Virus record (IMG/VR): IMGVR_UViG_3300021127_000002
Location: 1 to 64,000 of that record
From: a virus
Length of the DNA stretch: 64,000 bases
Strand: one strand, 5' to 3'
This document shows, one piece after another, positions 18,635-51,919 of the stretch; the stretch's first letter is position 1; each line of letters starts with the position of its first letter. Position numbers and translations under genes: made by a program. The notes beneath the pieces are model-generated. The model saw only the letters and a program-made list of their open reading frames with translations, was not told the DNA's origin and did not search any database.

Positions 18635-18669
18635 AAACAAATTATAATAAAAAATATATAAAAAAAGAT

Positions 18670-18699
18670 TTGTTTTTTGAAAAACTTTTATTACTTTTG
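18670..18699 (+). promoter_or_regulatory. Promoter of tRNA array 1
   Basis: TTG at 18670 and TACTTTTG at 18692-18699 with 22-nt spacing, 38 bp upstream of the leader ORF. Confidence 0.8.
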
Positions 18700-18737: not shown

Positions 18738-18821
18738 ATGAAATCGCAAATAAAAAATATAGGAATGACGTTTGGCAGAGTGAATGATCACACTGACAGG
18801 GGTTTCTTATGCGATTACTAA
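18738..18821 (+). CDS. Leader peptide of tRNA array 1
   Basis: 27 codons. After MKSQ the run IKNIGMTFGRVNDHTDRGF uses only amino acids whose tRNAs occur in the array that follows (Ile by AUA codons, Arg by AGA/AGG). The run leads directly into GGGGTTTCT (18799-18807), which can pair with AGAAACCCC (18844-18852), the strand that also forms the 5' arm of the terminator at 18849. Layout of a transcription attenuator; a structural or enzymatic role is unlikely. Confidence 0.75.
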   Translation: MKSQIKNIGMTFGRVNDHTDRGFLCDY

Positions 18822-18852
18822 TAGAAAGTAAAAGTTATAAATGAGAAACCCC
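18799..18852 (+). promoter_or_regulatory. Antiterminator pairing, array 1
   Basis: GGGGTTTCT (18799-18807) pairs perfectly over 9 bp with AGAAACCCC (18844-18852). The 3' strand includes the CCCC of the terminator stem, so the two structures exclude each other. Confidence 0.7.
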
Positions 18853-18876
18853 AGCACAAAAAGCTGGGGTTTTTTT
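18849..18876 (+). terminator. Attenuator terminator, array 1
   Basis: CCCCAGC (18849-18855) and GCTGGGG (18863-18869) form a 7-bp stem followed by a run of T. It separates the leader ORF from tRNA-His. Confidence 0.85.
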
Positions 18877-18894: not shown

Positions 18895-18967
18895 GTGACT
18901 GTAGCTCAATTGGGAGAGCGCTTCGTTGTGAGCGAAGGGGTAGTCGGATCGAAACCGACCTGTCACA
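18895..18967 (+). tRNA. tRNA-His(GUG)
   Basis: Full cloverleaf; anticodon loop TTGTGAG closed by CTTCG/CGAAG; T-loop ATCGAAA; no encoded CCA. A G at 18894 can serve as the His-specific G-1. Confidence 0.9.
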
Positions 18968-18972
18968 CAAAT

Positions 18973-19043
18973 ATTATAAGAGATAAGTATAGGACTTAGG
19001 TCTGGCTAAATAAGTCTTAAAACACTCGAAGGGGTCTTATAAT
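18973..19043 (+). other. Structured spacer S1
   Basis: ATTATAAGA (18973-18981) pairs over 9 bp with TCTTATAAT (19035-19043); inside, GACTTA (18993-18998) pairs with TAAGTC (19011-19016). It fills most of the gap after tRNA-His. Confidence 0.6.
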
Positions 19044-19047
19044 TAAT

Positions 19048-19059
19048 GTTCTTTGACAT
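19048..19059 (+). promoter_or_regulatory. boxA-like site
   Basis: GTTCTTTGACAT, the form typical ahead of Bacteroidota rRNA/tRNA operons, lies after spacer S1 and before the tRNA-Phe promoter. Confidence 0.5.
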
Positions 19060-19091
19060 ATTGGGATAAACAAAAAAAAATAAAAAAAAGT

Positions 19092-19122
19092 TTGGAAGTT
19101 TGAAAATAACTTCATACTTTTG
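19092..19122 (+). promoter_or_regulatory. Internal promoter before tRNA-Phe
   Basis: TTG at 19092 and TACTTTTG at 19115-19122. It means array 1 is not solely dependent on the attenuated promoter. Confidence 0.7.
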
Positions 19123-19133
19123 TAAAACAAATG

Positions 19134-19196
19134 GGAATGGTTCCAGCAAATTTTTAAGCAATTCACTTTTAATGATTCAAGCTAAAACCCCATTCC
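19134..19196 (+). other. CAGCA stem element E1
   Basis: GGAATGG (19134-19140) pairs with CCATTCC (19190-19196). TTCCAGCAAATTTTT follows the 5' strand. One of four similar elements (19134, 29536, 28 bp later at 29628, and 50078) that begin ~12-20 nt after a promoter and share CAGCA but have different, compensated stems. Confidence 0.5.
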
Positions 19197-19202
19197 GAAT
19201 TT

Positions 19203-19275
19203 GGTGCCGTAGCTCAGTTGGTAGAGCACGAAACTGAAAATTTCGGTGTCCCTGGTTCGATTCCAGTCGGTACCA
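19203..19275 (+). tRNA. tRNA-Phe(GAA)
   Basis: Anticodon loop CTGAAAA, stem CGAAA/TTTCG, T-loop TTCGATT, discriminator A, no encoded CCA. Confidence 0.92.
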
Positions 19276-19287
19276 CTTTATAAAGAA

Positions 19288-19417
19288 ATTTGCTTTGATA
19301 GGTGTGTATATTTGAAAACAGCCTTATCTGATGGTAACAGGTGACAAAGGGAATAAAATATTTAATTATTCGGTTATTACCAAATTAAACGGAATAACAT
19401 AACCTATCATAGCAAAT
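19288..19417 (+). other. Structured spacer S2
   Basis: ATTTGCTTTGATAGGT (19288-19303) pairs with ACCTATCATAGCAAAT (19402-19417) over 16 positions with one T-T mismatch. An internal GGTAA/TTACC stem (19333/19377) adds structure. The spacer is 152 nt and has no plausible ORF. Confidence 0.65.
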
Positions 19418-19427
19418 ACGTTATTAT

Positions 19428-19501
19428 GTACCCTTAGCTCAGCTGGTTAGAGCATAACACTCATAATGTTGGGGTCACAGGTTCGAACCCTGTAGGGTAC
19501 A
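19428..19501 (+). tRNA. tRNA-Met(CAU), elongator
   Basis: Anticodon loop CTCATAA, stem TAACA/TGTTG, GGGTCACAGG after the stem as in elongator tRNA-Met; paired 1-72, so not an initiator. Confidence 0.88.
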
Positions 19502-19510
19502 CTTAAAAAT

Positions 19511-19583
19511 TCTTCCATAGCGCAGCTGGTAGCGCAGCAGACTGTTAATCTGTTGGTCGCAGGTTCGAATCCTGCTGGAAGAG
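19511..19583 (+). tRNA. tRNA-Asn(GUU)
   Basis: Anticodon loop CTGTTAA, stem GCAGA/TCTGT, discriminator G followed by CA only. Confidence 0.92.
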
Positions 19584-19584
19584 C

Positions 19585-19648
19585 AAAATTAAAGGAAGTA
19601 AGTTAAGCGCACCTTGTTGAAAGCAGAACCTTTTAACCCTTTAATTTT
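19585..19648 (+). other. Structured spacer S3
   Basis: AAAATTAAAGG (19585-19595) pairs perfectly over 11 bp with CCTTTAATTTT (19638-19648); inner GTTAA/TTAAC. The stem exactly spans the gap between tRNA-Asn and tRNA-Asp. Confidence 0.65.
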
Positions 19649-19653
19649 AATAC

Positions 19654-19730
19654 GGAGGTGTAGTAGAGTTGGTTACAATGTCAGCTTGTCACGCTGAAGG
19701 TCGAGGGTTCGAATCCCTTCATCTCCGCCA
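19654..19730 (+). tRNA. tRNA-Asp(GUC)
   Basis: Anticodon loop TTGTCAC, acceptor GGAGGTG/CATCTCC, encoded GCCA 3' end. Confidence 0.92.
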
Positions 19731-19818
19731 AAATTCATAACCCTGTAAATATGAGAAGTACTATCTCGTCAATAGTATGATGGACAAAAAACACGGTGGG
19801 TTGACAACCTATGAATTT
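19731..19818 (+). other. Structured spacer S4
   Basis: AAATTCATA (19731-19739) pairs over 9 bp with TATGAATTT (19810-19818); nested AACCC/GGGTT and a TACTAT/ATAGTA hairpin. The stem starts at the base after the tRNA-Asp CCA. Confidence 0.65.
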
Positions 19819-19822
19819 CAAT

Positions 19823-19943
19823 GCTGATGTAGTGTAATGGTAACACGCTGTTAAAACAAGTGAATCTGATGAGATTCCATACCGCAATTAACAGTTATAT
19901 GCATTCCAAGCCAGAGTCGGTGGTTCGATTCTATCCGTCAGCT
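19823..19943 (+). tRNA. tRNA-Gly(UCC) interrupted by a 50-nt insertion
   Basis: Acceptor GCTGATG/CGTCAGC, D-arm GTGT-AATGGTA-ACAC and T-arm are normal, but 50 nt (19851-19900) interrupt the anticodon stem between positions 29 and 30. Removing them joins CTG to GC, restoring stem CTGGC/GCCAG, loop ATTCCAA and a 71-nt tRNA. The insert starts TTAAAACAAG, has hairpin GAATC-TGATGA-GATTC, then CCGCA, and ends TTATAT. It is far too short for a known group I or II intron. An uninterrupted tRNA-Gly(UCC) lies at 22774. Confidence 0.75.
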
Positions 19944-19957
19944 CAAAAAAATATATT

Positions 19958-20077
19958 ATGGCAAGAACATCCAAACGTGTTGCAAAAAAAGCAAGCAAAG
20001 CGTTAAAGAGTAAATCAACGAGTAAAACAACAAAAACACTTGCTGGTTCGGCTCTAAGACAAAGACGAAAAAGATAA
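19958..20077 (+). CDS. 39-residue Lys/Arg-rich basic protein
   Basis: Starts MARTSKRVAKKASKALKSKS and ends RQRRKR; almost entirely Lys, Arg, Ser, Thr, Ala, with no acidic residue. Embedded in the tRNA array 14 bp after tRNA-Gly and followed by a hairpin. Likely binds nucleic acid (RNA or DNA) by charge, like histone-H1-type tails; no family recognised. Confidence 0.65.
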   Translation: MARTSKRVAKKASKALKSKSTSKTTKTLAGSALRQRRKR

Positions 20078-20083
20078 TTATAA

Positions 20084-20118
20084 TATGCAAAACACCTCAA
20101 TAAACCTATTTTTGCATA
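20084..20118 (+). terminator. Hairpin after the basic-protein gene
   Basis: TATGCAAAA (20084-20092) pairs with TTTTGCATA (20110-20118). No U tract follows, so it may be a processing or stability element rather than a terminator. Confidence 0.4.
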
Positions 20119-20169
20119 ATATACTTTACATCTTTAACGTGCATATTTAACTTTATTAAGATATTATAT

Positions 20170-20242
20170 TGCGAGATAGAGCAGCGGTAGCTCGCCAGGC
20201 TCATAACCTGTGAGGTCGAAGGTTCGAGTCCTTCTCTCGCTA
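20170..20242 (+). tRNA. tRNA-fMet(CAU), initiator
   Basis: Anticodon loop CTCATAA with an unpaired 1-72 (T-T), the initiator hallmark; T-loop TTCGAGT; discriminator A. Confidence 0.85.
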
Positions 20243-20246
20243 CAAA

Positions 20247-20340
20247 TAGTAGTATGTTACGCACAAAACTCCTGATCCGAGAACGTGGTCGAAACGGTCA
20301 TATGTTAATTACAGACTCCGTAACTCTAAGACAACTACTA
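20247..20340 (+). other. Structured spacer S5
   Basis: TAGTAGT (20247-20253) pairs with ACTACTA (20334-20340), and GTTACG (20256-20261) with CGTAAC (20319-20324), nested. No ORF. Confidence 0.6.
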
Positions 20341-20354
20341 ACCTTTTTAAACAT

Positions 20355-20427
20355 TGCGAATTAGAGAAAAAGTTATCTCGCCAGGCTCATAACCTGGAGA
20401 TACCAGGAGCATTACCTGGGTTCGCTA
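20355..20427 (+). tRNA. Initiator-like tRNA(CAU) without elbow motifs
   Basis: 73 nt, fold TGCGAAT/GTTCGCT acceptor with T-T at 1-72, D-stem GAGA/TCTC, anticodon arm CCAGG-CTCATAA-CCTGG, T-stem CCAGG/CCTGG. The D-loop AAAAGTTA lacks GG and the T-loop AGCATTA lacks TTCGA, so the D-loop/T-loop contacts are missing while all four stems are intact. Either a decayed duplicate of the fMet gene at 20170 or a specialised mimic. Confidence 0.55.
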
Positions 20428-20561
20428 CAAAAGCCCAAAGGCCAAGGGATCGAAGATAAGAAAGTCTAATATCGGATTAATCATCCGAGAACAAGCCACT
20501 AAACTTCTGGATCGTATGCCAGCACAGTTCACAACTCTGGGGATAATTTAAAAGTTGTAAT
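20428..20561 (+). other. 134-nt spacer S6, no gene seen
   Basis: No ORF and no outer stem. Small hairpins CGGAT/ATCCG (near 20475) and CTGG/CCAG (near 20508) are visible. Probably tRNA spacer RNA like its neighbours. Confidence 0.35.
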
Positions 20562-20636
20562 GGACGCATAGTTTAGCTGGAAAAATACTTGCCTTGTAAG
20601 CATGAGTTCTCAGGTCGGTTCTGAGTGTGTCCTCCA
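20562..20636 (+). tRNA. tRNA-Thr(UGU)
   Basis: Anticodon loop CTTGTAA; acceptor GGACGCA/TGTGTCC; T-stem CTCAG/CTGAG with loop GTCGGTT; encoded CCA. Confidence 0.8.
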
Positions 20637-20656
20637 AAAAAAATTACAATAATAAT

Positions 20657-20687
20657 TTGCTTTTATTAACAATGTTTATTACTATTG
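20657..20687 (+). promoter_or_regulatory. Internal promoter in array 1
   Basis: TTG at 20657 and TACTATTG at 20680-20687. The expected start coincides with the first base of the next tRNA (20696), so it would have almost no 5' leader. Confidence 0.65.
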
Positions 20688-20695
20688 TATAACAA

Positions 20696-20816
20696 GGCGA
20701 GATGGTGTAACGGCAGCATTAAAAAAGAATCATCCAGTGTGGATGAATGCTGCAAATTAACTATCTAACAATTTCCTATTAAGAAAAAGGTTCAGGTTCG
20801 AATCCTGATCTCGCCG
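20696..20816 (+). tRNA. tRNA-like gene with ~50-nt insertion (Gln-type D-arm)
   Basis: Acceptor GGCGAGA/TCTCGCC, D-arm GTGT-AACGGCA-GCAT and T-arm TCAGG-TTCGAAT-CCTGA are intact. About 50 extra nt (around 20721-20770) lie between the D-arm and the anticodon arm; the rest leaves a weak arm TTTC-CTATTAA-GAAA, whose formal anticodon would be AUU, unusual enough that identity is open. The insert has the A-run start and a CATCC-AGTGT-GGATG hairpin, and GCAGCATT of the D-arm can pair with AATGCTGC in the insert. Confidence 0.5.
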
Positions 20817-20818
20817 CA

Positions 20819-21006
20819 ATGAGTTAGAGATACTCAGAGTCTTTGAATCAAGATTAAAAATGATTTCGCAGACCGTCAGTCAGCGTGAGTGGGACGGCTT
20901 GGGGTTAAAGATGACACACAAATCTTCCCAGTAGTGTTGGCACTTTTAATGAGGGATGCCTCGCAGGTTTTGTAGAAATAGAAAACCGAAATAACTACTC
21001 ATCCAT
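20819..21006 (+). other. Structured spacer S7
   Basis: ATGAG-TTA near 20819 can pair with TAA-CTACTCAT near 20992 around a small bulge. Inside are CCGTC/GACGG, AAGAT/ATCTT and GGTTTT/AAAACC hairpins. No ORF in ~190 nt. Confidence 0.45.
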
Positions 21007-21027
21007 AATCTCAAGATGGGGGAATTT

Positions 21028-21150
21028 CATCCTGTAGCTCAGTTGGTAGAGCAACGGTAAAAAAAAAGAGCATTCTGATGAGAATGTGTTCCGCAGTGAA
21101 AATTTTATATGTAGAACTGTGTGTCGGTGGTTCGAATCCATCCAGGATGA
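21028..21150 (+). tRNA. tRNA interrupted by a 50-nt insertion, probably GUA anticodon
   Basis: Acceptor CATCCTG/CAGGATG, D-arm GCTC/GAGC, T-arm GGTGG-TTCGAAT-CCATC. Removing 50 nt (21059-21108) gives stem ACGGT/ACTGT and loop ATGTAGA, i.e. anticodon GUA; but the five-base variable loop is not typical of tRNA-Tyr, and a class II tRNA-Tyr exists at 50364, so identity is tentative. The insert has nine A, hairpin CATTC-TGATGA-GAATG, CCGCA and a TTTTAT end, closely matching the insert at 19851. Confidence 0.6.
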
Positions 21151-21155
21151 CAAAA

Positions 21156-21384
21156 GGTTCCATTCCCTTTTAAAAAACGAATGGATGGTGGGATTCCCCT
21201 GGCGAAAGCCTCACAACATTGGGTTAAGATGTTTTTAACTAAAAAAAACGCTACCCATGGCGTTCTTCGTAAGGAGTTGAATCTACAGATTCTGAAATTC
21301 TTGGTCAGCTGGTAACTGATTAGTAGCAAAAGAATAAAAAAGCAGAGGTAACTGGGGTCACTGTAAATGGGTGAATAGGGAACC
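21156..21384 (+). other. Structured spacer S8
   Basis: GGTTCC (21156-21161) pairs with GGAACC (21379-21384). Internal hairpins CCATTC/GAATGG, AACGC/GCGTT; GAGGCG/CGCCTC follows immediately downstream. Reading frames through it are not gene-like. Confidence 0.5.
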
Positions 21385-21411
21385 GAGGCGTACCGAAGCA
21401 TCGCCTCAATT

Positions 21412-21486
21412 GCAGTAGTCGTATAGTGGCTATTACATCGCCTTGCCAAGGCGAGGACGGCAGTTCGATTCTGCCTTACTGCTCCA
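21412..21486 (+). tRNA. tRNA-Gly(GCC)
   Basis: Anticodon loop TTGCCAA, stem TCGCC/GGCGA, encoded TCCA end. Confidence 0.92.
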
Positions 21487-21500
21487 AAACAATAAATAAT

Positions 21501-22556
21501 ATGTCATGTAGAGTGCTTTTTATTTTAAAAAGAAAAGAGGATTTTAATCCAGTTAAAGATTCTAAAATTGGATTAACAACAGGTCTATATAATTCAGCAT
21601 CCTTCATGTATCAAATGCTTTTGGATTGTGGGGTTGAAACAAAAATTGTTGTTGTGATTGATAATAATGGTATTGATAAAGAAGTTACTGAGTTCAAACC
21701 AACACACGTTATTATTGAAGCGTTATGGGTTGTACCAACAAAGTTCTCAGTTCTTTGTAACTTACATCCAAGTGTTAAATGGATAATTAGATTACATAGT
21801 GAAATTCCATTTCTTGCAAACGAGGGAATGGCTATGGATTGGTTAGGTGATTATATTTCATATCCTAATGTTTTAATTGCTGTTAATTCACCAAGAACTT
21901 TAAATGAGATAAAATTTTATCTTGGGTATAAAATGAATTGGGATGATTTTGAAAAGGATAATAGAATTATATATTTACCAAATTTTTATCCACAAGATTA
22001 TAAGACAAAAACTTATACAGCAAATGATAAAGATATAATTGATATAGGTTGTTTTGGTGCAGTTAGACCTTTAAAAAATCATATAATGCAAGCAATCGCT
22101 GCTGTTAAGTTTGCAGACTCAATCAATAAAAAATTGAGGTTCCATGTTAACGGTGGTAGGGTTGAACAAAAAGGTGAACCTGTTATGAGAAATCTTATTG
22201 GATTTTTTTCACAATTATCTGATAAAGGACATCAATTAATAAACCATGGGTGGCAAGATAGAGAAGATTTTTCAAATATTTGTGCACAAATGGATATTGG
22301 TATGCAAGTTTCAATAACTGAAACGTTTAACATAGTTGGTGCTGATATTATAAGTCAAGGCGTACCTCTTGTTGGATCTAAAGAAATACCATGGATTGAT
22401 AGTTGGTTTGTAGCAAAAGCAACACAAACTGAAGAAATATATGCGGCTTTATTACTAACACATCAATCACCAAATTTGAATGTTACAAAGAATCAAAAAG
22501 AACTAACTATTTATACTAATAAGACCAAAGATATTTGGTTAGAATATTTTAAATAA
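21501..22556 (+). CDS. GT4-like glycosyltransferase
   Basis: 352 residues from ATG 21501; earlier in-frame codons lie inside tRNA-Gly and are excluded. Begins MSCRVLFILKRKEDFNP. The C-terminal half has IGCFGAVRPLKNHIMQAI (donor domain), HGWQDREDFSNICAQMDI and SITETFNIVGADIISQGVPL, where SITETF...VGADI corresponds to the E-x7-E region of GT4 enzymes. Inserted within the tRNA array. Donor and acceptor unknown; may serve the same glycan as the clusters at 31-39 and 53-58 kb. Confidence 0.75.
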   Translation: MSCRVLFILKRKEDFNPVKDSKIGLTTGLYNSASFMYQMLLDCGVETKIVVVIDNNGIDKEVTEFKPTHVIIEALWVVPTKFSVLCNLHPSVKWIIRLHSEIPFLANEGMAMDWLGDYISYPNVLIAVNSPRTLNEIKFYLGYKMNWDDFEKDNRIIYLPNFYPQDYKTKTYTANDKDIIDIGCFGAVRPLKNHIMQAIAAVKFADSINKKLRFHVNGGRVEQKGEPVMRNLIGFFSQLSDKGHQLINHGWQDREDFSNICAQMDIGMQVSITETFNIVGADIISQGVPLVGSKEIPWIDSWFVAKATQTEEIYAALLLTHQSPNLNVTKNQKELTIYTNKTKDIWLEYFK

Positions 22557-22564
22557 AAAAGAAT

Positions 22565-22765
22565 ATGTCACACAAAGTAAAAGTAAGTACCTGGGAAAAA
22601 GGTGTATTGACTCATAGAGAATCCGAATTTAATTATAAACACGAAGCACATGGTTTCGCTAAAAAAATTAAAAAAGGACTCATAAAAATTTATGATGATT
22701 TAAATAAATTAATACATTCATGGGAAAGCGGTTTTGATGAAAAAGATAATGATTCATATGCTTAA
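22565..22765 (+). CDS. Small hypothetical protein
   Basis: 66 residues, 8 bp after the glycosyltransferase. Charged, Lys-rich middle (AKKIKKGLIKIYDDLNKL) and acidic tail. Shares with the small protein at 30322 the pattern of a short ORF following phage tRNAs. No function assignable. Confidence 0.55.
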   Translation: MSHKVKVSTWEKGVLTHRESEFNYKHEAHGFAKKIKKGLIKIYDDLNKLIHSWESGFDEKDNDSYA

Positions 22766-22773
22766 TTAAATTT

Positions 22774-22848
22774 GCGGTAGTCGTATAGTGGCTATTACTC
22801 CTTCCTTCCAAGTAGGAGACGGAGGTTCGATTCCTCTCTACCGCTCCA
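22774..22848 (+). tRNA. tRNA-Gly(UCC)
   Basis: Anticodon loop CTTCCAA, acceptor GCGGTAG/CTACCGC, encoded TCCA end. Uninterrupted counterpart of the split gene at 19823. Confidence 0.9.
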
Positions 22849-22957
22849 TAGGAATATGCATAAAAGCGTTGATAGATGAAGTGTCTAAGGTTTGGTTGAC
22901 TGAGTTATACAGTTTGAAGAGACACCCCTAATGCGCACCAAACAGCCTCTATTCCTA
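22849..22957 (+). other. Pseudoknotted spacer S9
   Basis: TAGGAATA (22849-22856) pairs with TATTCCTA (22950-22957). Inside, GTGTCT (22881)/AGACAC (22920) and GTTTGGT (22890)/ACCAAAC (22937) interleave, giving an H-type pseudoknot. It starts at the base after the tRNA-Gly CCA. Confidence 0.55.
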
Positions 22958-23114
22958 ACCTTATTAAAAACGACAGAGAAATCTGTAACTCTTATAGTAA
23001 ACGAAGTAATTAATCGTTGAAATGTCGCATCGTCTGAGGGCTTAGGGGAGAATCGGATAAAGTGCTTTATAAAAGCAAGCACAACGCTGGTGATGGGCGG
23101 CTATACCAGCAAAT
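22958..23114 (+). other. Second half of spacer, hairpins only
   Basis: CGACA/TGTCG encloses ACAGA-GAAA-TCTGT and AACGA/TCGTT hairpins; GTGCTT/AAGCAC and GCTGG/CCAGC follow. No ORF supported. Confidence 0.4.
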
Positions 23115-23186
23115 GCCGATGTAGCTCAAAGGAAGAGCGATCCCCTCATATGGGATAGGTTTGGGTTTCGAGATCCCACATCGGTA
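23115..23186 (+). tRNA. tRNA(CAU), probably Ile2
   Basis: Anticodon loop CTCATAT with stem ATCCC/GGGAT. A normal elongator and an initiator tRNA-Met are already present, so lysidine-modified Ile2 reading AUA is the likely role; the array-1 leader uses two AUA codons. Confidence 0.6.
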
Positions 23187-23209
23187 CAATTTGTTTATCT
23201 CAAATATAT

Positions 23210-23281
23210 ACCCCTTTAGCTCAAAGGCGGAGCGCTTGGCTTACATCCAAGAGGTTGGGATTTCGAAATTCTCAGGGGGTA
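23210..23281 (+). tRNA. tRNA-Val(UAC)
   Basis: Anticodon loop CTTACAT, stem CTTGG/CCAAG, acceptor ACCCCTT/AGGGGGT. Confidence 0.88.
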
Positions 23282-23285
23282 CAAA

Positions 23286-23383
23286 AAAAATTGCTAAACC
23301 AGCTTCCGTACACGTTTGTCTAACGGAATAATTAAGGCAATGTAGACATGAACGTATCATTGATCTAACTGGAGGTAATTTTT
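23286..23383 (+). other. Structured spacer S10
   Basis: AAAAATT/AATTTTT (23286/23377), CCAG/CTGG (23299/23369) and a TTCCGT/ACGGAA hairpin (23304/23323) nest in order. Confidence 0.5.
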
Positions 23384-23393
23384 AAAAATAAAT

Positions 23394-23424
23394 TTGGTAA
23401 GTAAAAAATAATTACTTATCTTTG
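23394..23424 (+). promoter_or_regulatory. Internal promoter before broken tRNA
   Basis: TTG at 23394 and TATCTTTG at 23417-23424; start expected close to the 5' tRNA fragment at 23435. Confidence 0.6.
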
Positions 23425-23434
23425 TAAAACAAAT

Positions 23435-23454
23435 GGCTCCATAGCTCAATGGAT
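23435..23454 (+). pseudogene. 5' fragment of a split tRNA gene
   Basis: GGCTCCATAGCTCAATGGAT has an acceptor 5' strand and half a D-arm. Its complement TGGGGTC occurs at 23977-23983, beyond the tRNA-Arg/HNH block. ATGGAT is repeated at 23449 and 23928, as if the block were inserted into the D-loop. Confidence 0.6.
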
Positions 23455-23459
23455 ATTAT

Positions 23460-23530
23460 GCTCCCATCGTTCAATGGAAGGACGAGACTCTTCTAAAGTC
23501 TTCATAGAGGTTCGAATCCTCTTGGGAGCA
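23460..23530 (+). tRNA. tRNA-Arg(UCU)
   Basis: Anticodon loop CTTCTAA, stem AGACT/AGTCT, acceptor GCTCCCA/TGGGAGC. Lies inside the block that splits the older tRNA and may replace its function. Confidence 0.9.
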
Positions 23531-23905
23531 CTAAAATTTTATTTCGTTATGGTGCCGTATACGATGACAGTTAGAACAAAGTAAAACACATTTATCAAGT
23601 TCATCCGTTATTTTATCCCAAGATTGTAATCTTAATTTAGTCCAATCCATATCTTTTTTATTTGGATCTAAATGGTGAAAATCAAAGATAACATATGGAT
23701 ATTCTGGATAAGAAGTAGAACAATCTACGCATTTGTCACCTTTGTAATGTATAGCGTCTATTTTGCGTTCAATCCATCGTTGAACACAATAAGAGTTAAA
23801 ACATACTTTACACATACCAAATGCACTATTTTTTCTACTTTTTCTATGATAAAAGTCAGACTCTTGTTTTGGTTGTTTACATCTTGAACATAATTTTTCT
23901 TTCAT
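23531..23905 (-). CDS. HNH homing endonuclease
   Basis: 124 residues, opposite to the tRNAs. Zinc cysteines CSRC...CKVC at the N-terminus and CVDC...CSNC flank FDFHHLDPNKKD, the HNH core, ending CSNCHRIRHH. Typical of small phage HNH homing enzymes. It begins one base after tRNA-Arg, ends in TAG (rare as a stop here), and the segment 23455-23933 interrupts a tRNA gene, so it is a mobile element with the tRNA as target. Confidence 0.8.
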   Translation of the reverse strand: MKEKLCSRCKQPKQESDFYHRKSRKNSAFGMCKVCFNSYCVQRWIERKIDAIHYKGDKCVDCSTSYPEYPYVIFDFHHLDPNKKDMDWTKLRLQSWDKITDELDKCVLLCSNCHRIRHHNEIKF

Positions 23906-23927
23906 ATATTTCTTTATTTATAAATAT

Positions 23928-23984
23928 ATGGATTAGAAGTAAAAGTTCTAAGCTGTGGATCAAGGTTCGAGTCCCTGTGGGGTC
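23928..23984 (+). pseudogene. 3' fragment of the split tRNA gene
   Basis: ATGGATTAGAAGTAAAAG, then TTCTAAG as an anticodon-like loop, a degraded T-arm (CAAGG-TTCGAGT-CCCTG) and acceptor strand TGGGGTC. Joined to 23435-23454 it makes a near-complete tRNA. Confidence 0.55.
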
Positions 23985-23992
23985 ACTAATAA

Positions 23993-24065
23993 TGCGCTAT
24001 AAGCTTTAAGGTGAAGTAACGAGCTTTTAACTCGTGGAAGAAGGGTCAGTACCTTCATGGCGCAC
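23993..24065 (+). tRNA. tRNA-Lys(UUU)
   Basis: Anticodon loop CTTTTAA, stem ACGAG/CTCGT, acceptor TGCGCTA/TGGCGCA. T-loop GTCAGTA and a short D-stem are unusual. Confidence 0.75.
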
Positions 24066-29465: not shown

Positions 29466-29487
29466 AAAAAATTTTTGAGAAAAAACT

Positions 29488-29517
29488 TGTTTTTTTAAAA
29501 ATTGTTTATTACTTTTG
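29488..29517 (+). promoter_or_regulatory. Promoter of tRNA array 2
   Basis: TTG at 29488 and TACTTTTG at 29510-29517. Confidence 0.8.
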
Positions 29518-29535
29518 TACTATATTGAAATAATG

Positions 29536-29614
29536 GGATTGCCTACAGCAAATTTTTATCAATTTAAACTTCCAATTTAAACTTCCAATTTAAAACGTCA
29601 AAAAAAAGCAATCC
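29536..29614 (+). other. CAGCA stem element E2
   Basis: GGATTGC (29536-29542) pairs with GCAATCC (29608-29614). CTACAGCAAATTTTT follows the first strand; the loop carries a repeated AATTTAAACTTCC unit. Confidence 0.5.
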
Positions 29615-29627
29615 GTATTTTATAAAG

Positions 29628-29678
29628 GGAATAATTTCAGCATTTAAACCTTGCTAAATAAGAAAAAAACATTATTCC
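29628..29678 (+). other. CAGCA stem element E3
   Basis: GGAATAAT (29628-29635) pairs with ATTATTCC (29671-29678). TTCAGCATTTAAACC follows; AGCA/TGCT and TTTA/TAAA inside could form a small pseudoknot; AAGAAAAAAAC precedes the closing strand, as in E4. Confidence 0.5.
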
Positions 29679-29730
29679 GATTTTTTTTAAAAAAAGAACA
29701 TATTTATATAAAAGCATAAAATATTTTAAA

Positions 29731-29820
29731 ATGAAAAACGTTAATAACATTATTCGCCTACAACAGTTACAACTCTTAATTTTAAGAGATGGGGCATCTA
29801 TTGTTAAAACTTTTTCATAA
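29731..29820 (+). CDS. Leader peptide of tRNA array 2
   Basis: 29 codons, starts MKNVNN, then IIRLQQLQLLILR, thirteen residues only of Ile, Arg, Leu and Gln, followed by DGASIVKTFS. The downstream array encodes tRNA-Arg(ACG), Leu(AAG), Leu(UAG), Gln(UUG) and Ile(GAU). The run ends at 29787, just before TGGGGC (29790-29795), which can pair with GCCCCA of the terminator arm. Confidence 0.8.
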   Translation: MKNVNNIIRLQQLQLLILRDGASIVKTFS

Positions 29821-29855
29821 CATAGAAGAATTAAGAAAGGAAAACTTAAGCCCCA
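29790..29855 (+). promoter_or_regulatory. Antiterminator pairing, array 2
   Basis: TGGGGC (29790-29795) pairs with GCCCCA (29850-29855), which overlaps the terminator 5' arm. Shorter than the pairings in arrays 1 and 3. Confidence 0.55.
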
Positions 29856-29885
29856 GTACGCAAAGCGATCTGGGGTTTTTTATTT
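29851..29885 (+). terminator. Attenuator terminator, array 2
   Basis: CCCCAG (29851-29856) and CTGGGG (29870-29875) with inner CGC/GCG, followed by TTTTTTATTTT. Confidence 0.85.
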
Positions 29886-29888
29886 TAC

Positions 29889-29962
29889 GGCTATGTGGCG
29901 CAACGGATTAGCGCACTCCGCTACGGACGGAGGGGTTGAAAGTTCGAATCTTTCCATAGTCA
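29889..29962 (+). tRNA. tRNA-Arg(ACG)
   Basis: Anticodon loop CTACGGA, stem CTCCG/CGGAG, acceptor GGCTATG/CATAGTC. Needs inosine at 34 to read CGC, the Arg codon in the array-2 leader. Confidence 0.92.
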
Positions 29963-29971
29963 CAATATAAT

Positions 29972-30053
29972 GGCTCTGTGCTGTAATTGGTAGCCAGGCT
30001 GGTCTAAGAAGCCAGTGTTTTAGGACGTGTCGGTTCGAGTCCGACCAGAGTCA
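29972..30053 (+). tRNA. tRNA-Leu(AAG)
   Basis: Class II with a long variable arm; anticodon loop CTAAGAA, stem CTGGT/GCCAG. A34 is rare for Leu in bacteria and would need deamination to read CUC. Confidence 0.8.
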
Positions 30054-30059
30054 CATAAT

Positions 30060-30133
30060 GGTTCAGTAGCCCAAATGGGAGAGGCAATAGTTTTAGAAAC
30101 TATACAGTGAGGGTTCGAATCCCTCTTGGACTA
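30060..30133 (+). tRNA. tRNA-Leu(UAG), short variable loop
   Basis: Anticodon loop TTTAGAA, stem ATAGT/ACTAT. The variable loop is only five bases (ACAGT), unlike normal class II tRNA-Leu. Confidence 0.75.
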
Positions 30134-30155
30134 CAAGGGAATTATAGTCTTAGAT

Positions 30156-30227
30156 AGTTACGTGGTGCAACGGTTAGCACAACAGGTTTTGACCCTGTTA
30201 ATTCAAGTTCGAATCTTGACGTAACTA
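30156..30227 (+). tRNA. tRNA-Gln(UUG)
   Basis: Anticodon loop TTTTGAC, stem ACAGG/CCTGT, acceptor AGTTACG/CGTAACT. Confidence 0.9.
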
Positions 30228-30236
30228 CACAAATAT

Positions 30237-30311
30237 TGCTCCATAGTAGAATGGTTATAACGCTTGACTGATACTCAAGAAAATCCAGTTCGATTCTGGG
30301 TGGAGCAACCA
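30237..30311 (+). tRNA. tRNA-Ile(GAU)
   Basis: Anticodon loop CTGATAC, stem CTTGA/TCAAG, encoded ACCA end. Confidence 0.92.
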
Positions 30312-30321
30312 AAAATTTTTT

Positions 30322-30525
30322 ATGGTAAACAAATATGAAAAATCTATAACAACAGATATACCATTTGAAATCAAATATACATCTAATAAAGATGGCTTGA
30401 TTTCTTGTTATTTGCCTGAAATCAATTCGTATTTTTCAGCAAAAAATGAATTAGATATGAAACGAAAAGCACATGCTTTTTTTAAAATCTGGATAAAATT
30501 TTTCAATGAACAAAATAAACCTTAA
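30322..30525 (+). CDS. Small hypothetical protein, HicB-like pattern
   Basis: 67 residues, 10 bp after tRNA-Ile. SNKDGLISCYLPEINSYFSA resembles the strand order of small HicB-type partial RNase H folds, but the DNA-binding half is absent. No toxin partner is adjacent. Function unknown. Confidence 0.5.
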   Translation: MVNKYEKSITTDIPFEIKYTSNKDGLISCYLPEINSYFSAKNELDMKRKAHAFFKIWIKFFNEQNKP

Positions 30526-30530
30526 ATTTT

Positions 30531-30560
30531 TTGTTTTTTCAAAAAAGTTTATTACTTTTG
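30531..30560 (+). promoter_or_regulatory. Promoter before tRNA-Leu(UAA)
   Basis: TTG at 30531 and TACTTTTG at 30553-30560. Confidence 0.75.
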
Positions 30561-30570
30561 TAACATAAAT

Positions 30571-30597
30571 GCCTCGGTGATGGAATGGTAGACATGC
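30571..30597 (+). pseudogene. 5' fragment of a Leu-type tRNA
   Basis: GCCTCGGTGATGGAATGGTA plus GACATGC is an acceptor strand and D-arm of class II tRNA-Leu form, with no 3' half before the complete tRNA-Leu starts six bases later. It sits at the expected transcription start. Confidence 0.55.
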
Positions 30598-30602
30598 AAA
30601 AT

Positions 30603-30688
30603 GCGACTGTGCTGTAACTGGTAACCAGGTTGGTCTTAAAAACCAATGAGCCGTAAGGTTCGTGAGGGTTCGACTCCCTTCAGTCGCA
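30603..30688 (+). tRNA. tRNA-Leu(UAA)
   Basis: Class II; anticodon loop CTTAAAA, stem TTGGT/ACCAA, variable arm GAGCCGTAAGGTTCG, acceptor GCGACTG/CAGTCGC. Confidence 0.9.
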
Positions 30689-30703
30689 CAATTATTTAAA
30701 TAA

Positions 30704-40101: not shown

Positions 40102-40102
40102 T

Positions 40103-40132
40103 TTGTTTATTTAAAAACTTTTATTACTTTTG
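40103..40132 (+). promoter_or_regulatory. Promoter of tRNA-Cys
   Basis: TTG at 40103 and TACTTTTG at 40125-40132. A hairpin GTGTAGT/ACTACAC (about 40132-40152) lies at the transcript start. Confidence 0.75.
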
Positions 40133-40158
40133 TGTAGTTATTAATACTACACAAACTT

Positions 40159-40231
40159 GTACATGTGGTCGAGTGGTTAAGGCAGGTGCCTGCAAAGTAT
40201 CAATTCGGTGGTTCGAATCCATCCATGTACT
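40159..40231 (+). tRNA. tRNA-Cys(GCA)
   Basis: Anticodon loop CTGCAAA, acceptor GTACATG/CATGTAC. The only amino acid not represented in any of the three tRNA leader runs, and it is controlled separately. Confidence 0.9.
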
Positions 40232-40250
40232 CTAAATTTAAATTAAATAT

Positions 40251-40580
40251 ATGAAAAAAAATATAGACTTCAATACTTACAAGGAACTTAGTGATAAAGT
40301 TGAAATATTGTTAGGTGAAATCACGTCCGCAGAAAAAGTGGAAAAAAGTGATAAGATGTTAAAGTTAACTGTGAACTTCGGAAATGAAGATGTTAGAACA
40401 GTAATGACAAACATCGGTAACAGAATTGATTGTAATGAACTTGTAAATTCGGTTTATCCTTTTATAACAAATCTTGAACCAGCTAAAATTATGGGTATAA
40501 TGTCATCTGCGATGATAATGGTGCCGTCAAGTGGTGATACTCTTGATTTAATGGGTAATCCTGGTTCACGATTGATGTAA
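40251..40580 (+). CDS. tRNA-binding OB-fold protein (Trbp111-like)
   Basis: 109 residues. LGEITSAEKVEKSDKMLKLT, then VNFGNEDVRTVMTNI and a closing SSAMIMVPSSG match the tRNA-binding domain found at the C-terminus of MetRS and in CsaA/Trbp111. It lies between tRNA-Cys and the suppressor-like tRNA, so a tRNA chaperone or aminoacylation cofactor role is likely. Confidence 0.8.
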   Translation: MKKNIDFNTYKELSDKVEILLGEITSAEKVEKSDKMLKLTVNFGNEDVRTVMTNIGNRIDCNELVNSVYPFITNLEPAKIMGIMSSAMIMVPSSGDTLDLMGNPGSRLM

Positions 40581-40588
40581 TCAGATCA

Positions 40589-40660
40589 GGCTCGTTGGTG
40601 TAGCGGCAACATTCGGAATTCTAAACTCCAGAGTCACCAGTTCGATCCTGGTACGAGCCA
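40589..40660 (+). tRNA. Amber suppressor-like tRNA(CUA)
   Basis: 72 nt, normal spacing throughout: acceptor GGCTCGT/ACGAGCC, Gln-type D-arm GTGT-AGCGGCA-ACAT, anticodon stem CGGAA/CTCCA (three of five paired), loop TTCTAAA, T-arm ACCAG-TTCGATC-CTGGT. The anticodon CUA reads UAG. Two genes within 1.4 kb upstream have TAG as codon 3. Confidence 0.8.
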
Positions 40661-40676
40661 CATAATTTATATTTCA

Positions 40677-50002: not shown

Positions 50003-50030
50003 AAAATCTGAAAAAAAAATTAGAAAACAT

Positions 50031-50060
50031 TTGTTTTTTCAAAAATTTTTACTACTTTTG
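50031..50060 (+). promoter_or_regulatory. Promoter of tRNA array 3
   Basis: TTG at 50031 and TACTTTTG at 50053-50060, spacing identical to arrays 1 and 2. Confidence 0.8.
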
Positions 50061-50077
50061 TACTATATATAACAAGA

Positions 50078-50128
50078 GGATAATTCCAGCAGTTAAAAAC
50101 TTCTATTGGTAAGAAAAAAACATTATCC
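50078..50128 (+). other. CAGCA stem element E4
   Basis: GGATAAT (50078-50084) pairs with ATTATCC (50122-50128). TCCAGCAGTTAAAAAC follows the first strand; AAGAAAAAAAC precedes the second, as in E3. Confidence 0.5.
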
Positions 50129-50166
50129 TGGTTATTTTTAAAAAAACTATAAAAAATTAAAAGAAA

Positions 50167-50307
50167 ATGAGAAACTCAAGATTAACAGTAGTAGCCGCAT
50201 CATGGGCACCGAGTTATGAACCGTCATCAGCGTATGAGAGCGGAAGGGGTTCTTATTACTTTTATTTTCCTATAAAGTCAACAAAAGATACTGACGATAG
50301 AGGATAA
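50167..50307 (+). CDS. Leader peptide of tRNA array 3
   Basis: 46 codons. After MRNSRLTVV comes AASWAPSYEPSSAYES, sixteen residues only of Ala, Ser, Trp, Pro, Tyr and Glu; the array encodes tRNA-Tyr, Pro, Ser(UGA), Trp, Ser(GCU), Glu x2 and Ala, with both Ser codon families used. The run ends at 50241; GGGTTCTTATTA (50247-50258) follows and can pair with TAATAAGAACCC before and in the terminator arm. Confidence 0.85.
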   Translation: MRNSRLTVVAASWAPSYEPSSAYESGRGSYYFYFPIKSTKDTDDRG

Positions 50308-50333
50308 AAAAAAGAAAAAGATAATAAGAACCC
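50247..50333 (+). promoter_or_regulatory. Antiterminator pairing, array 3
   Basis: GGGTTCTTATTA (50247-50258) pairs perfectly over 12 bp with TAATAAGAACCC (50322-50333), whose last three bases are the start of the terminator stem. Confidence 0.75.
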
Positions 50334-50358
50334 TGAGAATAAAATCTCAGGGTTTTTT
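50331..50358 (+). terminator. Attenuator terminator, array 3
   Basis: CCCTGAG (50331-50337) and CTCAGGG (50346-50352), then TTTTTTG. Confidence 0.85.
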
Positions 50359-50363
50359 GTTTT

Positions 50364-50448
50364 GGGAGTGTTGTCGATACGGTTAGTCGGCACCTGTCTG
50401 TAAAACAGGAACTTAACGGTTTTGTCAGTTCGAATCTGACCACTCTCA
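50364..50448 (+). tRNA. tRNA-Tyr(GUA)
   Basis: Class II; anticodon loop CTGTAAA, stem CCTGT/ACAGG, long variable arm, acceptor GGGAGTG/CACTCTC. Confidence 0.9.
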
Positions 50449-50464
50449 CAGTTGAAGACTGTTA

Positions 50465-50502
50465 CTAATTCATAGAAAGTCCGTTACTTTGCATAGAATT
50501 AG
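50465..50502 (+). other. Structured spacer S11
   Basis: CTAATTC (50465-50471) pairs with GAATTAG (50496-50502), between tRNA-Tyr and tRNA-Pro. Confidence 0.5.
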
Positions 50503-50506
50503 AAAC

Positions 50507-50581
50507 CAGGGGTTAGTATAGCCAGGTCAATTACTCGTGCTTTGGGAGCATGAAACGCAGATTCGAATTCTGCACCCCTGA
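50507..50581 (+). tRNA. tRNA-Pro(UGG)
   Basis: Anticodon loop TTTGGGA, stem CGTGC/GCATG, acceptor CAGGGGT/ACCCCTG. Confidence 0.92.
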
Positions 50582-50586
50582 CAAAT

Positions 50587-50690
50587 AAGTTGATTATACA
50601 TTATGAGTATTGAGTCATGACTTGAAAATAATGTAAGGTGGTTGAGAACCCTGGTGGTTTGAGATAATGGTTCAAGTCCATTTCAACTTA
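50587..50690 (+). pseudogene. Degenerate or interrupted tRNA-like element
   Basis: Acceptor AAGTTGA/TCAACTT and T-arm AATGG-TTCAAGT-CCATT are intact, but the 73 nt between them give no normal D and anticodon arms. CATTAT/ATAATG (50600/50628) forms a hairpin there. No anticodon can be assigned. Confidence 0.45.
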
Positions 50691-50702
50691 CAAAAAAAGG
50701 AA

Positions 50703-50714
50703 GTTCTTTGAAAT
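50703..50714 (+). promoter_or_regulatory. boxA-like site
   Basis: GTTCTTTGAAAT, 13 bp before tRNA-Ser(UGA). Confidence 0.4.
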
Positions 50715-50727
50715 ATTGTTTTAATAA

Positions 50728-50814
50728 GGTAGATGGTGCTTATGGAAGCAAACGCTCTTGAAAAGCGTGACTATCGGTGATGAGCTGGTAAGGGTTCGAT
50801 TCCTTCATCTACCG
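50728..50814 (+). tRNA. tRNA-Ser(UGA)
   Basis: Class II; anticodon loop CTTGAAA closed by ACGCT/AGCGT, acceptor GGTAGAT/ATCTACC, discriminator G. Confidence 0.9.
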
Positions 50815-50828
50815 CTAAATTTTAAAGT

Positions 50829-50939
50829 ATGAAAAACAAAATTATTTTGGATGAAAAATCCTTAGATTGGTTGATTGGAACAAGAAAAAATCCAAGATCA
50901 AACAAGTTTTATCTAAAGATAAATTGTACAATACTTTAA
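50829..50939 (+). CDS. Possible 36-codon ORF between tRNAs
   Basis: MKNKIILDEKSLDWLIGTRK opens a short frame ending TAA 50937. It fills the gap between tRNA-Ser and tRNA-Trp. Small size and lack of homologs I can recall make it uncertain. Confidence 0.35.
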   Translation: MKNKIILDEKSLDWLIGTRKNPRSNKFYLKINCTIL

Positions 50940-50951
50940 TAAAATTAAAAT

Positions 50952-51022
50952 ACGAGCATAGTTCAATGGTAGAATATCGGTCTCCAAAACCGCAGATATA
51001 GGTTCGAATCCTATTGTTCGTG
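50952..51022 (+). tRNA. tRNA-Trp(CCA)
   Basis: Anticodon loop CTCCAAA, stem TCGGT/ACCGC, acceptor ACGAGCA/TGTTCGT, discriminator G. Confidence 0.9.
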
Positions 51023-51033
51023 CAAATAAAAAT

Positions 51034-51267
51034 ATGATTATGGAAAAGAATGAAATAAAAAAAGCTTTGTATAAGCAAAATCCGAAAGCTCAACTTGATT
51101 ATATCAGGAAAGGTAATGCGTATTATTACACATATGTTAATAAGCATTTTGATGATGGTACTTTCGAATCATTTGATGTAAGATTTGAAATACCAGTTGA
51201 GGATATGGGCGATGCAGATTTCTTTGTTGAAATGGAATCAAAGTATTTGCAGCGTTGGATTATGTAA
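51034..51267 (+). CDS. Small hypothetical phage protein
   Basis: 77 residues (start ATG 51034; ATG 51040 also possible). NPKAQLDYIRKGNAYYYTYV and an acidic VEDMGDADFFVEMESKYL helix. Looks like a conserved small phage protein; function unknown. Confidence 0.6.
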   Translation: MIMEKNEIKKALYKQNPKAQLDYIRKGNAYYYTYVNKHFDDGTFESFDVRFEIPVEDMGDADFFVEMESKYLQRWIM

Positions 51268-51275
51268 AAATAAAT

Positions 51276-51362
51276 GGAGAGTTAAACAGCCAGGGTCGCT
51301 GTCGCCACCTGCTAAGTGAGCGGCTCATTAATTTGGGTGCATTTCGATTATGCAACTCTCCG
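51276..51362 (+). tRNA. tRNA-Ser(GCU)
   Basis: Class II; anticodon loop CTGCTAA, acceptor GGAGAGT/ACTCTCC, long variable arm, discriminator G. Confidence 0.85.
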
Positions 51363-51394
51363 CCTGGAACTTTTGAAGCTTTTTATACTATAAA

Positions 51395-51571
51395 ATGAAA
51401 AAAAGAAAAGATTATAGAAAACTAAGTGATGAGGAAAAAAAAGTTATTGATGAAAAAATCAAAAGAGATTTACCGATTGATAAATATGCCAACGACTTTA
51501 TAATTTCCAATATCAAAGATGGTTACAGATGTTATGAATGTTATACAATTACATGTATATGTGAATGTTAA
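51395..51571 (+). CDS. 58-residue Lys-rich protein with Cys cluster
   Basis: Starts MKKRKDYRKLSDEEKKVIDE and ends CYECYTITCICEC, five cysteines in 13 residues, which may bind a metal. Lies between tRNA-Ser and tRNA-Glu. Not a known family. Confidence 0.5.
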   Translation: MKKRKDYRKLSDEEKKVIDEKIKRDLPIDKYANDFIISNIKDGYRCYECYTITCICEC

Positions 51572-51575
51572 TAAT

Positions 51576-51647
51576 GTCGGTGTGGTGCAACGGTTAGCAC
51601 GACAGATTTTCGATCTGTAAACGAGGGTTCGATTCCCTTCATCGATA
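51576..51647 (+). tRNA. tRNA-Glu(UUC) 1
   Basis: Anticodon loop TTTTCGA, stem ACAGA/TCTGT, acceptor GTCGGTG/CATCGAT. Confidence 0.88.
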
Positions 51648-51654
51648 CTAAAAT

Positions 51655-51725
51655 GGCGCATTAGTTCAATGGTAGAACGTGGCACTTTCACTGCCAAAAA
51701 GACGGATCGTAACCGTTATGCGCTA
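51655..51725 (+). tRNA. tRNA-Glu(UUC) 2
   Basis: Anticodon loop CTTTCAC, stem TGGCA/TGCCA, acceptor GGCGCAT/ATGCGCT; T-loop ATCGTAA is unusual. Confidence 0.8.
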
Positions 51726-51733
51726 CAAAATAT

Positions 51734-51806
51734 GGGGTGTTGGTTAAGAAGGCGATAACACGACCCTTGCAAGGTCGAGTCATGGGTTCGACTCCCATAC
51801 GCTCCA
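51734..51806 (+). tRNA. tRNA-Ala(UGC)
   Basis: Anticodon loop CTTGCAA, stem CGACC/GGTCG, acceptor GGGGTGT/ACGCTCC. Confidence 0.9.
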
Positions 51807-51919
51807 CTTATAAAATTTAAACTGATGGAAAACTTAAATGGAGGCACCACGCTGGTCGCACGAAGGGTCAGAGACTAAAAGATGTTTCTGACCGTATTGG
51901 AACAAGACACCAACGAAAA

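Follow-up and report, generated by a model that had tools for sequence, protein, structure and literature searches.

The three multi-gene tRNA arrays in the first 64,000 bases of the 120,202-base IMG/VR virus record IMGVR_UViG_3300021127_000002 (hereafter the window) share one order of elements: a promoter, a short open reading frame (ORF), an intrinsic terminator and the tRNA genes. Each ORF contains a run of codons that matches the tRNAs of its own array, and we conclude that the tRNA operons of these phages, large viruses that infect Bacteroidota, are very probably controlled by ribosome-mediated transcription attenuation. The case is built from sequence: the architecture, the match in composition and codons, co-variation between phages, RNA complementarity and the geometry of a stalled ribosome. 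A first-pass annotation of the window had proposed a multi-amino-acid attenuation leader for array 3; arrays 1 and 2, absent from that finding, have the same design. The proposal gains support from the tracking of tRNA content by leader composition, from isoacceptor-specific codon choice and from the sharp end of the sensor run. ARAGORN detected no tRNAs in the remainder of the record, outside the window.

In array 3, the 46-codon ORF that had been noted between promoter and tRNAs is present, and its run, AASWAPSYEPSSAYES, is indeed confined to amino acids of the array 3 tRNAs, with Ser codons from both boxes. The longest matched run comprises 16 codons (P = 0.0002 versus random protein windows). 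The reported 12/12 pairing of GGGTTCTTATTA with TAATAAGAACCC also holds, although the gap between run and arm is 5 bases and not 6. As for the tRNA list, Tyr, Pro, Ser(UGA), Trp, Glu, Glu and Ala were found, whereas Ser(GCU) was not called by ARAGORN; we accept it as a putative gene at about 51275–51363 on the basis of an acceptor stem, T-arm and GCU loop recognized by eye and an ARAGORN call at the same place in the relative L110.

The three window leaders matched their own arrays at fractions of 0.68, 0.65 and 0.68, compared with 0.00–0.40 when paired with the other arrays. The Lys residues of leader 1 are accounted for, since array 1 carries a tRNA-Lys(UUU) at 23994–24064 that was matched by Rfam and missed by ARAGORN. 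One of the CAU tRNAs of array 1 may be Ile2, fitting the AUA-only spelling of Ile in leader 1. The array 2 sensor run spells Ile as AUU only, and the tRNA of that array is Ile(GAU).

A scan of viral contigs for close relatives with the RNase-H-like protein (window 18179–18634) and the exact promoter pattern returned no match; the query that reached relatives was the A1-like protein encoded directly upstream of array 1 (window 16394–17989). Our sample comprised 80 IMG/VR loci and the tRNA regions of those records, beside cultured and other phages. Leaders were collected by a finder blind to composition, which required a terminator at most 900 nt before a tRNA and an ATG-initiated ORF of 18–60 codons ending between −60 and +5 of that terminator. 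It yielded 46 leaders, 37 of them distinct. The tested set of 35 consisted of finder leaders with complete arrays and array 2 of the window, added by hand because the loop of its terminator exceeds the length that the finder accepts.

Leader composition followed the downstream tRNAs closely. Across the 35 leaders, 0.697 of sensor residues belonged to the set of their own array, versus 0.318 (s.d. 0.035, maximum 0.478 of 20,000) for shuffled pairings, and 0.946 of array amino acids occurred in their own leader, versus 0.507 after shuffling. As many leaders are related, we repeated the test with one leader for each of 16 array types; the matched fraction was 0.699 against 0.326, a value reached by none of 100,000 shuffles. 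Within families, the presence or absence of amino acids agreed between leader and array in 42 of 51 cells, with 27.8 expected (P = 0.0014). Glu, for instance, belongs to the third array of the window and to its leader, whereas G003 has it in its first array and in the leader of that array. That leader composition should track tRNA content in related phages was the check the first-pass annotation had itself put forward, and it came out in favour of the proposal. Leaders also foretold tRNA genes that ARAGORN missed and Rfam found: Asn (L017, L026), His (L110) and Lys (window).

The arrangement of leader, terminator and array also occurs in the cultured phages Panino (Maribacter) and phi38:1 and Calle (both Cellulophaga), as well as in phages of 600 kb and in numerous IMG/VR records. 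In Panino, leader MKTQRLHQELEQPTNIG precedes tRNAs for Pro, Glu, Gln, His, Leu, Leu and Arg, and leader MRAATGIAIIGRTKDKPLG of a second array precedes Ala, Lys, Ile, Gly, Asp, Thr, Val and Met. The phi38:1/Calle leader MKTIMNIATDIRTKGVKLLG is followed by Lys, Ile, Gly, Met, Asp, Thr, Val and Arg, with an Ala gene in front identified by eye; MKTNMTYNNFSWYSNCSFSSYN by Ser, Ser, Asn, Trp (in Calle) and Phe, with a Tyr gene in front, likewise by eye; and a third, MNARLLHQEPLEQLRLPSR, by Pro, Glu, Gln, His, Leu and Arg. In uncultured phages of 635–642 kb, leader MNTITNIASYESYYEEGN stands before tRNAs for Glu, Ser and Tyr and leader MKTMNLNMNLNTLTVVNNTL before those for Asn, Leu, Val, Ile and Thr, and a contig from a Lacinutrix metagenome-assembled genome has two leaders like those of Panino. 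No leader–terminator unit was found in the tRNA arrays of T4, T5 and crAss001, nor any leader at the LR756508 and LR756501 loci adjoining RNase-H homologues, where tRNAs are present. In the sampled loci, 8 of 25 attenuator-like sites lay away from tRNAs; these look like chance occurrences. Small ORFs are plentiful in AT-rich DNA and that of array 3 was first picked by eye, yet to ascribe the whole pattern to chance or selective reading is scarcely credible, being contradicted by the composition-blind search, the shuffles, the positional profile described below and the replication in cultured phages.

The match extends to isoacceptors. Of 244 distinct anticodons, 228 had a readable codon in their own leader, compared with 114 (s.d. 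10, maximum 147) for shuffled leaders. This coverage discriminated better than simple codon decodability, a weak measure because most amino acids are represented by one anticodon. Among the isoacceptors for Leu, Arg, Ser, Ile and Gly, coverage was 79 of 83, versus 68.9 (s.d. 2.7, maximum 77) in 500 synonymous resamplings; Leu anticodons AAG, CAA, UAA and UAG in arrays correspond to CUU, UUG, UUA and CUA in leaders. Judged by its codons, the sensor reads tRNA species and not amino acids alone. The same attenuator might instead respond to amino acid starvation, that is, to uncharged tRNA rather than loss of the molecules. Charging drives classical attenuators, and these leaders would respond to starvation too. 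However, codons that track isoacceptors, as those for Leu do, are unneeded for starvation sensing, and starvation is not cured by extra uncharged tRNA, so that we consider starvation an unlikely, if still appreciable, candidate for the principal signal. Loss of usable tRNA, through host tRNA decay or a tRNA-cutting defence, is probably the signal more than starvation is.

Within leader families, the residues are found in scrambled order, with their composition preserved (YQTQYQPKGGKP, YTGKQYPQGKQG, YQPKQYTQGGKP); synonymous and nonsynonymous counts therefore carry no information in these families. The scrambling bears on the idea that the nascent peptide itself arrests the ribosome, in the manner of TnaC or Erm leaders. 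Motifs such as NIFDFAFFAAEAD are indeed shared within one leader family, but an arrest peptide is hard to reconcile with free residue order and with the lack of a common motif among unrelated array types, and we regard it as highly improbable.

The position of the sensor matches what attenuation would demand of it. In 31 leaders, the 5′ arm of the antiterminator (region 2) was fixed by complementarity alone, and the match to the array was then read by position. It stood at 0.77–0.97 at codons −14 to −4 before region 2, over a background near 0.31; pooled values were 0.87 at codons −16 to −4, 0.35 at −3 to −1 and 0.28 at 0 to +8. A ribosome extends about four codons ahead of its A site. The sensor, ending about four codons before region 2, therefore stops where a stalled ribosome would begin to hide the arm. 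Direct binding of tRNAs by the leader RNA without translation, as in a T-box, would likewise exploit the existing codon–anticodon complementarity; however, a whole-window Rfam scan matched tRNAs only and no T-box (RF00230), and the match falls within a single uninterrupted ORF, bounded by a start and a stop codon, attains 12–16 codons in a row and ends at the ribosome footprint from region 2, which would not be expected of sensing by RNA alone. We therefore give RNA-only sensing very little weight beside ribosome-mediated attenuation.

In 19 of 34 leaders, complementarity between region 2 and the 3′ arm of the antiterminator (region 3) was above that of shuffles (P ≤ 0.05). The alternative antiterminator, which adjoins the control codons and overlaps the 5′ arm of the terminator, is clear in arrays 1 and 3 and measures just 6 bp in array 2. 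We folded the three window leaders with a ribosome assumed to cover 15 nt from the start of the A-site codon. Over most of the run, the antiterminator probability was 0.99, 0.94 and 0.89 for arrays 1, 2 and 3, and it dropped to 0 once the ribosome covered region 2. The two alternative structures first envisaged for array 3 are thus borne out in silico: a stall in the run frees the antiterminator and a covered region 2 abolishes it. Without a ribosome, region 2 of array 1 pairs with upstream RNA (0.74), as in a classical protector.

Several observations weigh against attenuation as we read it. The sensor segments used in the within-family and 16-type tests were delimited by hand. Some leaders contain residues without a detected tRNA, namely Ala (L110, L114) and Lys (L042), and the Ala tRNAs predicted by the L110 and L114 leaders were not found. 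Region 2:3 complementarity was individually non-significant in 15 of 34 leaders, with P about 0.9 for L046 and L047. In arrays 1 and 2, a ribosome stalled on one of the last two or three codons of the sensor would mask region 2 already, and array 3, when untranslated, shows no protector pairing. Lastly, folding of the finished transcript at equilibrium favours the terminator over the antiterminator; the device must therefore act co-transcriptionally, like known attenuators.

We propose that the short leader is translated during its own transcription and that its 12–16 sensor codons would be read by the tRNAs of its own operon, different isoacceptors included. Should any one of these be scarce, the ribosome would stall within the run, region 2 would be free to pair with the terminator's 5′ arm, and RNA polymerase would enter the tRNA genes. 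With all of them plentiful, the ribosome would proceed and cover region 2, the terminator would form and the array would be off. We infer leader translation, stalling and readthrough from the sequences; each operon would then be a negative-feedback loop with OR logic over its tRNAs. Attenuation is reported as likely for leader peptides of Flavobacterium amino acid operons (PMC9723704), so that the host machinery is plausibly capable of it. One study proposes host tRNA depletion as a reason for phage tRNAs (PMC10264068). We favour, with some reserve, a broader model in which several attenuators per genome each read the usable level of every isoacceptor that their operon encodes, the phage thereby detecting destruction or decay of host tRNAs in infection, including that by anticodon-nuclease defences, and turning on just the operon that repairs it.

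Table 1. Positions of the attenuator elements, tRNA genes and associated features (window coordinates unless a locus is named).
Feature	Positions	Strand	Details
Array 1 promoter	18669–18699	+	Pattern scan
Array 1 leader ORF	18738–18821	+	MKSQIKNIGMTFGRVNDHTDRGFLCDY
Array 1 sensor	18753–18800	+	KNIGMTFGRVNDHTDR; Ile spelled AUA only
Array 1 antiterminator 5′ arm	18799–18810	+	GGGGTTTCTTAT; complementarity 27.8 vs shuffles 6.4 s.d. 6.1; stall scan
Array 1 region 3	18841–18852	+	ATGAGAAACCCC
Array 1 intrinsic terminator	18845–18873	+	−17.8 kcal/mol
Array 1 tRNAs	18895–24064	+	His, Phe, Met, Asn, Asp, Met/Ile2(CAU), Thr, Gly, Gly, Val, Arg, Lys(UUU)
Array 2 promoter	29487–29517	+	First box degenerate; BLAST, 92% to array 3 promoter
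Array 2 leader ORF	29731–29820	+	MKNVNNIIRLQQLQLLILRDGASIVKTFS
Array 2 sensor	29749–29787	+	IIRLQQLQLLILR; Leu codons CUA, UUA, CUC for three Leu tRNAs
Array 2 antiterminator 5′ arm	29790–29795	+	TGGGGC, pairs with GCCCCA at 29850–29855
Array 2 intrinsic terminator	29851–29875	+	CCCCAG..CTGGGG and T tract; −13.4 kcal/mol
Array 2 tRNAs	29889–30689	+	Arg(ACG), Leu(AAG), Leu(UAG), Gln, Ile(GAU), Leu(UAA)
Array 3 promoter	50030–50060	+	Bacteroidota type, TTTG-N19-TACTTTTG; pattern scan
Array 3 leader ORF	50167–50307	+	46 aa, MRNSRLTVVAASWAPSYEPSSAYESGRGSYYFYFPIKSTKDTDDRG; also recovered by composition-blind finder
Array 3 sensor run	50194–50241	+	AASWAPSYEPSSAYES; Ser codons UCA, AGU, AGC
Array 3 antiterminator 5′ arm (region 2)	50246–50263	+	GGGGTTCTTATTACTTTT; complementarity 31.6 vs shuffles 13.7 s.d. 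3.1
Array 3 antiterminator 3′ arm (region 3)	50317–50334	+	Overlaps terminator 5′ arm
Array 3 intrinsic terminator	50326–50357	+	−18.0 kcal/mol
Array 3 tRNAs	50364–51807	+	Tyr, Pro, Ser(UGA), Trp, Ser(GCU; putative, 51275–51363), Glu, Glu, Ala
Contrast unit: promoter, tRNA-Cys, tRNA(CUA)	40102–40661	+	tRNAs 40159–40661
5′ untranslated region (UTR) element sites, window	19124–19203, 29530–29684, 50070–50134		Alignment
5′ UTR element sites, other loci	L015 3446–3526; L016 13910–13990; L017 12794–12856; L018 5364–5440; L022 14338–14406		Alignment

The Bacteroidota-type promoter pattern TTTG-N19-TAnnTTTG has 21 matches in the window, versus 6.7 (s.d. 2.65) in shuffled sequence. Directly 3′ of promoters in the tRNA regions, we found a recurrent 5′ UTR element, GGGAATG-nTTACAGCA-...-CATTCC(G), which matched no Rfam family at the gathering threshold. 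Extra promoters at 19091, 23393, 30530 and 40102, in or beside the arrays, run straight into tRNAs without leader or terminator, and part of the tRNA supply may thus be unregulated. The last of these serves the tRNA-Cys/tRNA(CUA) unit, which has neither leader nor terminator ahead of the Cys gene. Suppressor-type tRNAs with anticodon CUA occur at window 40589–40661, at L110 13062 (minus strand) and at L011 25503 and 25581, adjoining tRNA-Cys in the window and L110; TAG ends 6 of 100 long open stretches of the window record.

Some tRNA genes of array 1 contain insertions of about 40–50 nt in or near the anticodon arm (window 19823–19943, 20696–20817 and 21028–21150; L017 14311–14425). A hairpin with CTGATGAG as its core is present in most of these genes, and their ARAGORN anticodons are doubtful; they are candidates for introns or unusual tRNA-like RNAs. 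In array 3, the segment 50588–50691, between Pro and Ser(UGA), is tRNA-like, with AAGTTGA...TCAACTT ends and a T-arm, and received no ARAGORN or Rfam call. In L110, at about 4550–5440 on the minus strand, an opposite-strand ORF after tRNA-Glu seems to break the place of tRNA-Ala; a remnant, ACACGCTCCA, resembles the 3′ end of the window tRNA-Ala, and Ala codons persist in the L110 leader. tmRNA genes lie in or near phage tRNA arrays at L012 13999–14400, L114 17608–17986 and L100 17884–18242, according to annotation, ARAGORN and Rfam.

The reason for tRNA genes in phages has been a matter of debate for decades, and the leader codons would name the trigger: a shortage of those very tRNAs. Their presence in cultured Cellulophaga and Maribacter phages makes the question directly testable. 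Attenuation would reach beyond amino acid pathways and include the translation machinery, in the form of a natural multi-input tRNA sensor. Leader composition also serves as a predictor of tRNA genes missed by annotation programs, here Asn, His and Lys.

The closest known systems are the attenuators of amino acid operons (trp, his, ilv and thr leaders), with which the phage units share a leader ORF of control codons, an adjoining antiterminator arm, an intrinsic terminator before the first gene and, in array 1, a protector formed by region 2 and RNA upstream of it. Unlike these, the phage units are viral, control tRNA genes, appear to sense between 3 and 12 amino acids, resolved to the level of isoacceptors, and divide the amino acids of each genome over several attenuated operons. 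In the ilv-leu and thr leaders, one leader senses more than one amino acid, two or three that are related and matched to the pathway. The phage leaders resemble them in multi-amino-acid sensing, whereas their sensed set equals the tRNAs of the operon and not a pathway. T-box riboswitches likewise sense the state of tRNA and control an intrinsic terminator, but they do so by RNA alone, for one tRNA, distinguishing charged from uncharged. No Rfam amino-acid leader family matched among the leaders scanned. Van den Berg 2023 (PMC10264068) similarly proposes that phage arrays replace tRNAs destroyed in infection and mentions no leader, attenuation or terminator, whereas the arrays described here apparently sense such depletion. 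The passages found in papers on phage tRNAs and on Calle likewise make no mention of leaders or attenuation. We found no report of a phage tRNA attenuator in the open-access papers searched; most subscription journals fall outside that scope, and an earlier report is possible. As far as can be told, the working principle is a known one, and what appears to be new is the kind of genes controlled, the sensing of many tRNAs and the occurrence in viruses.

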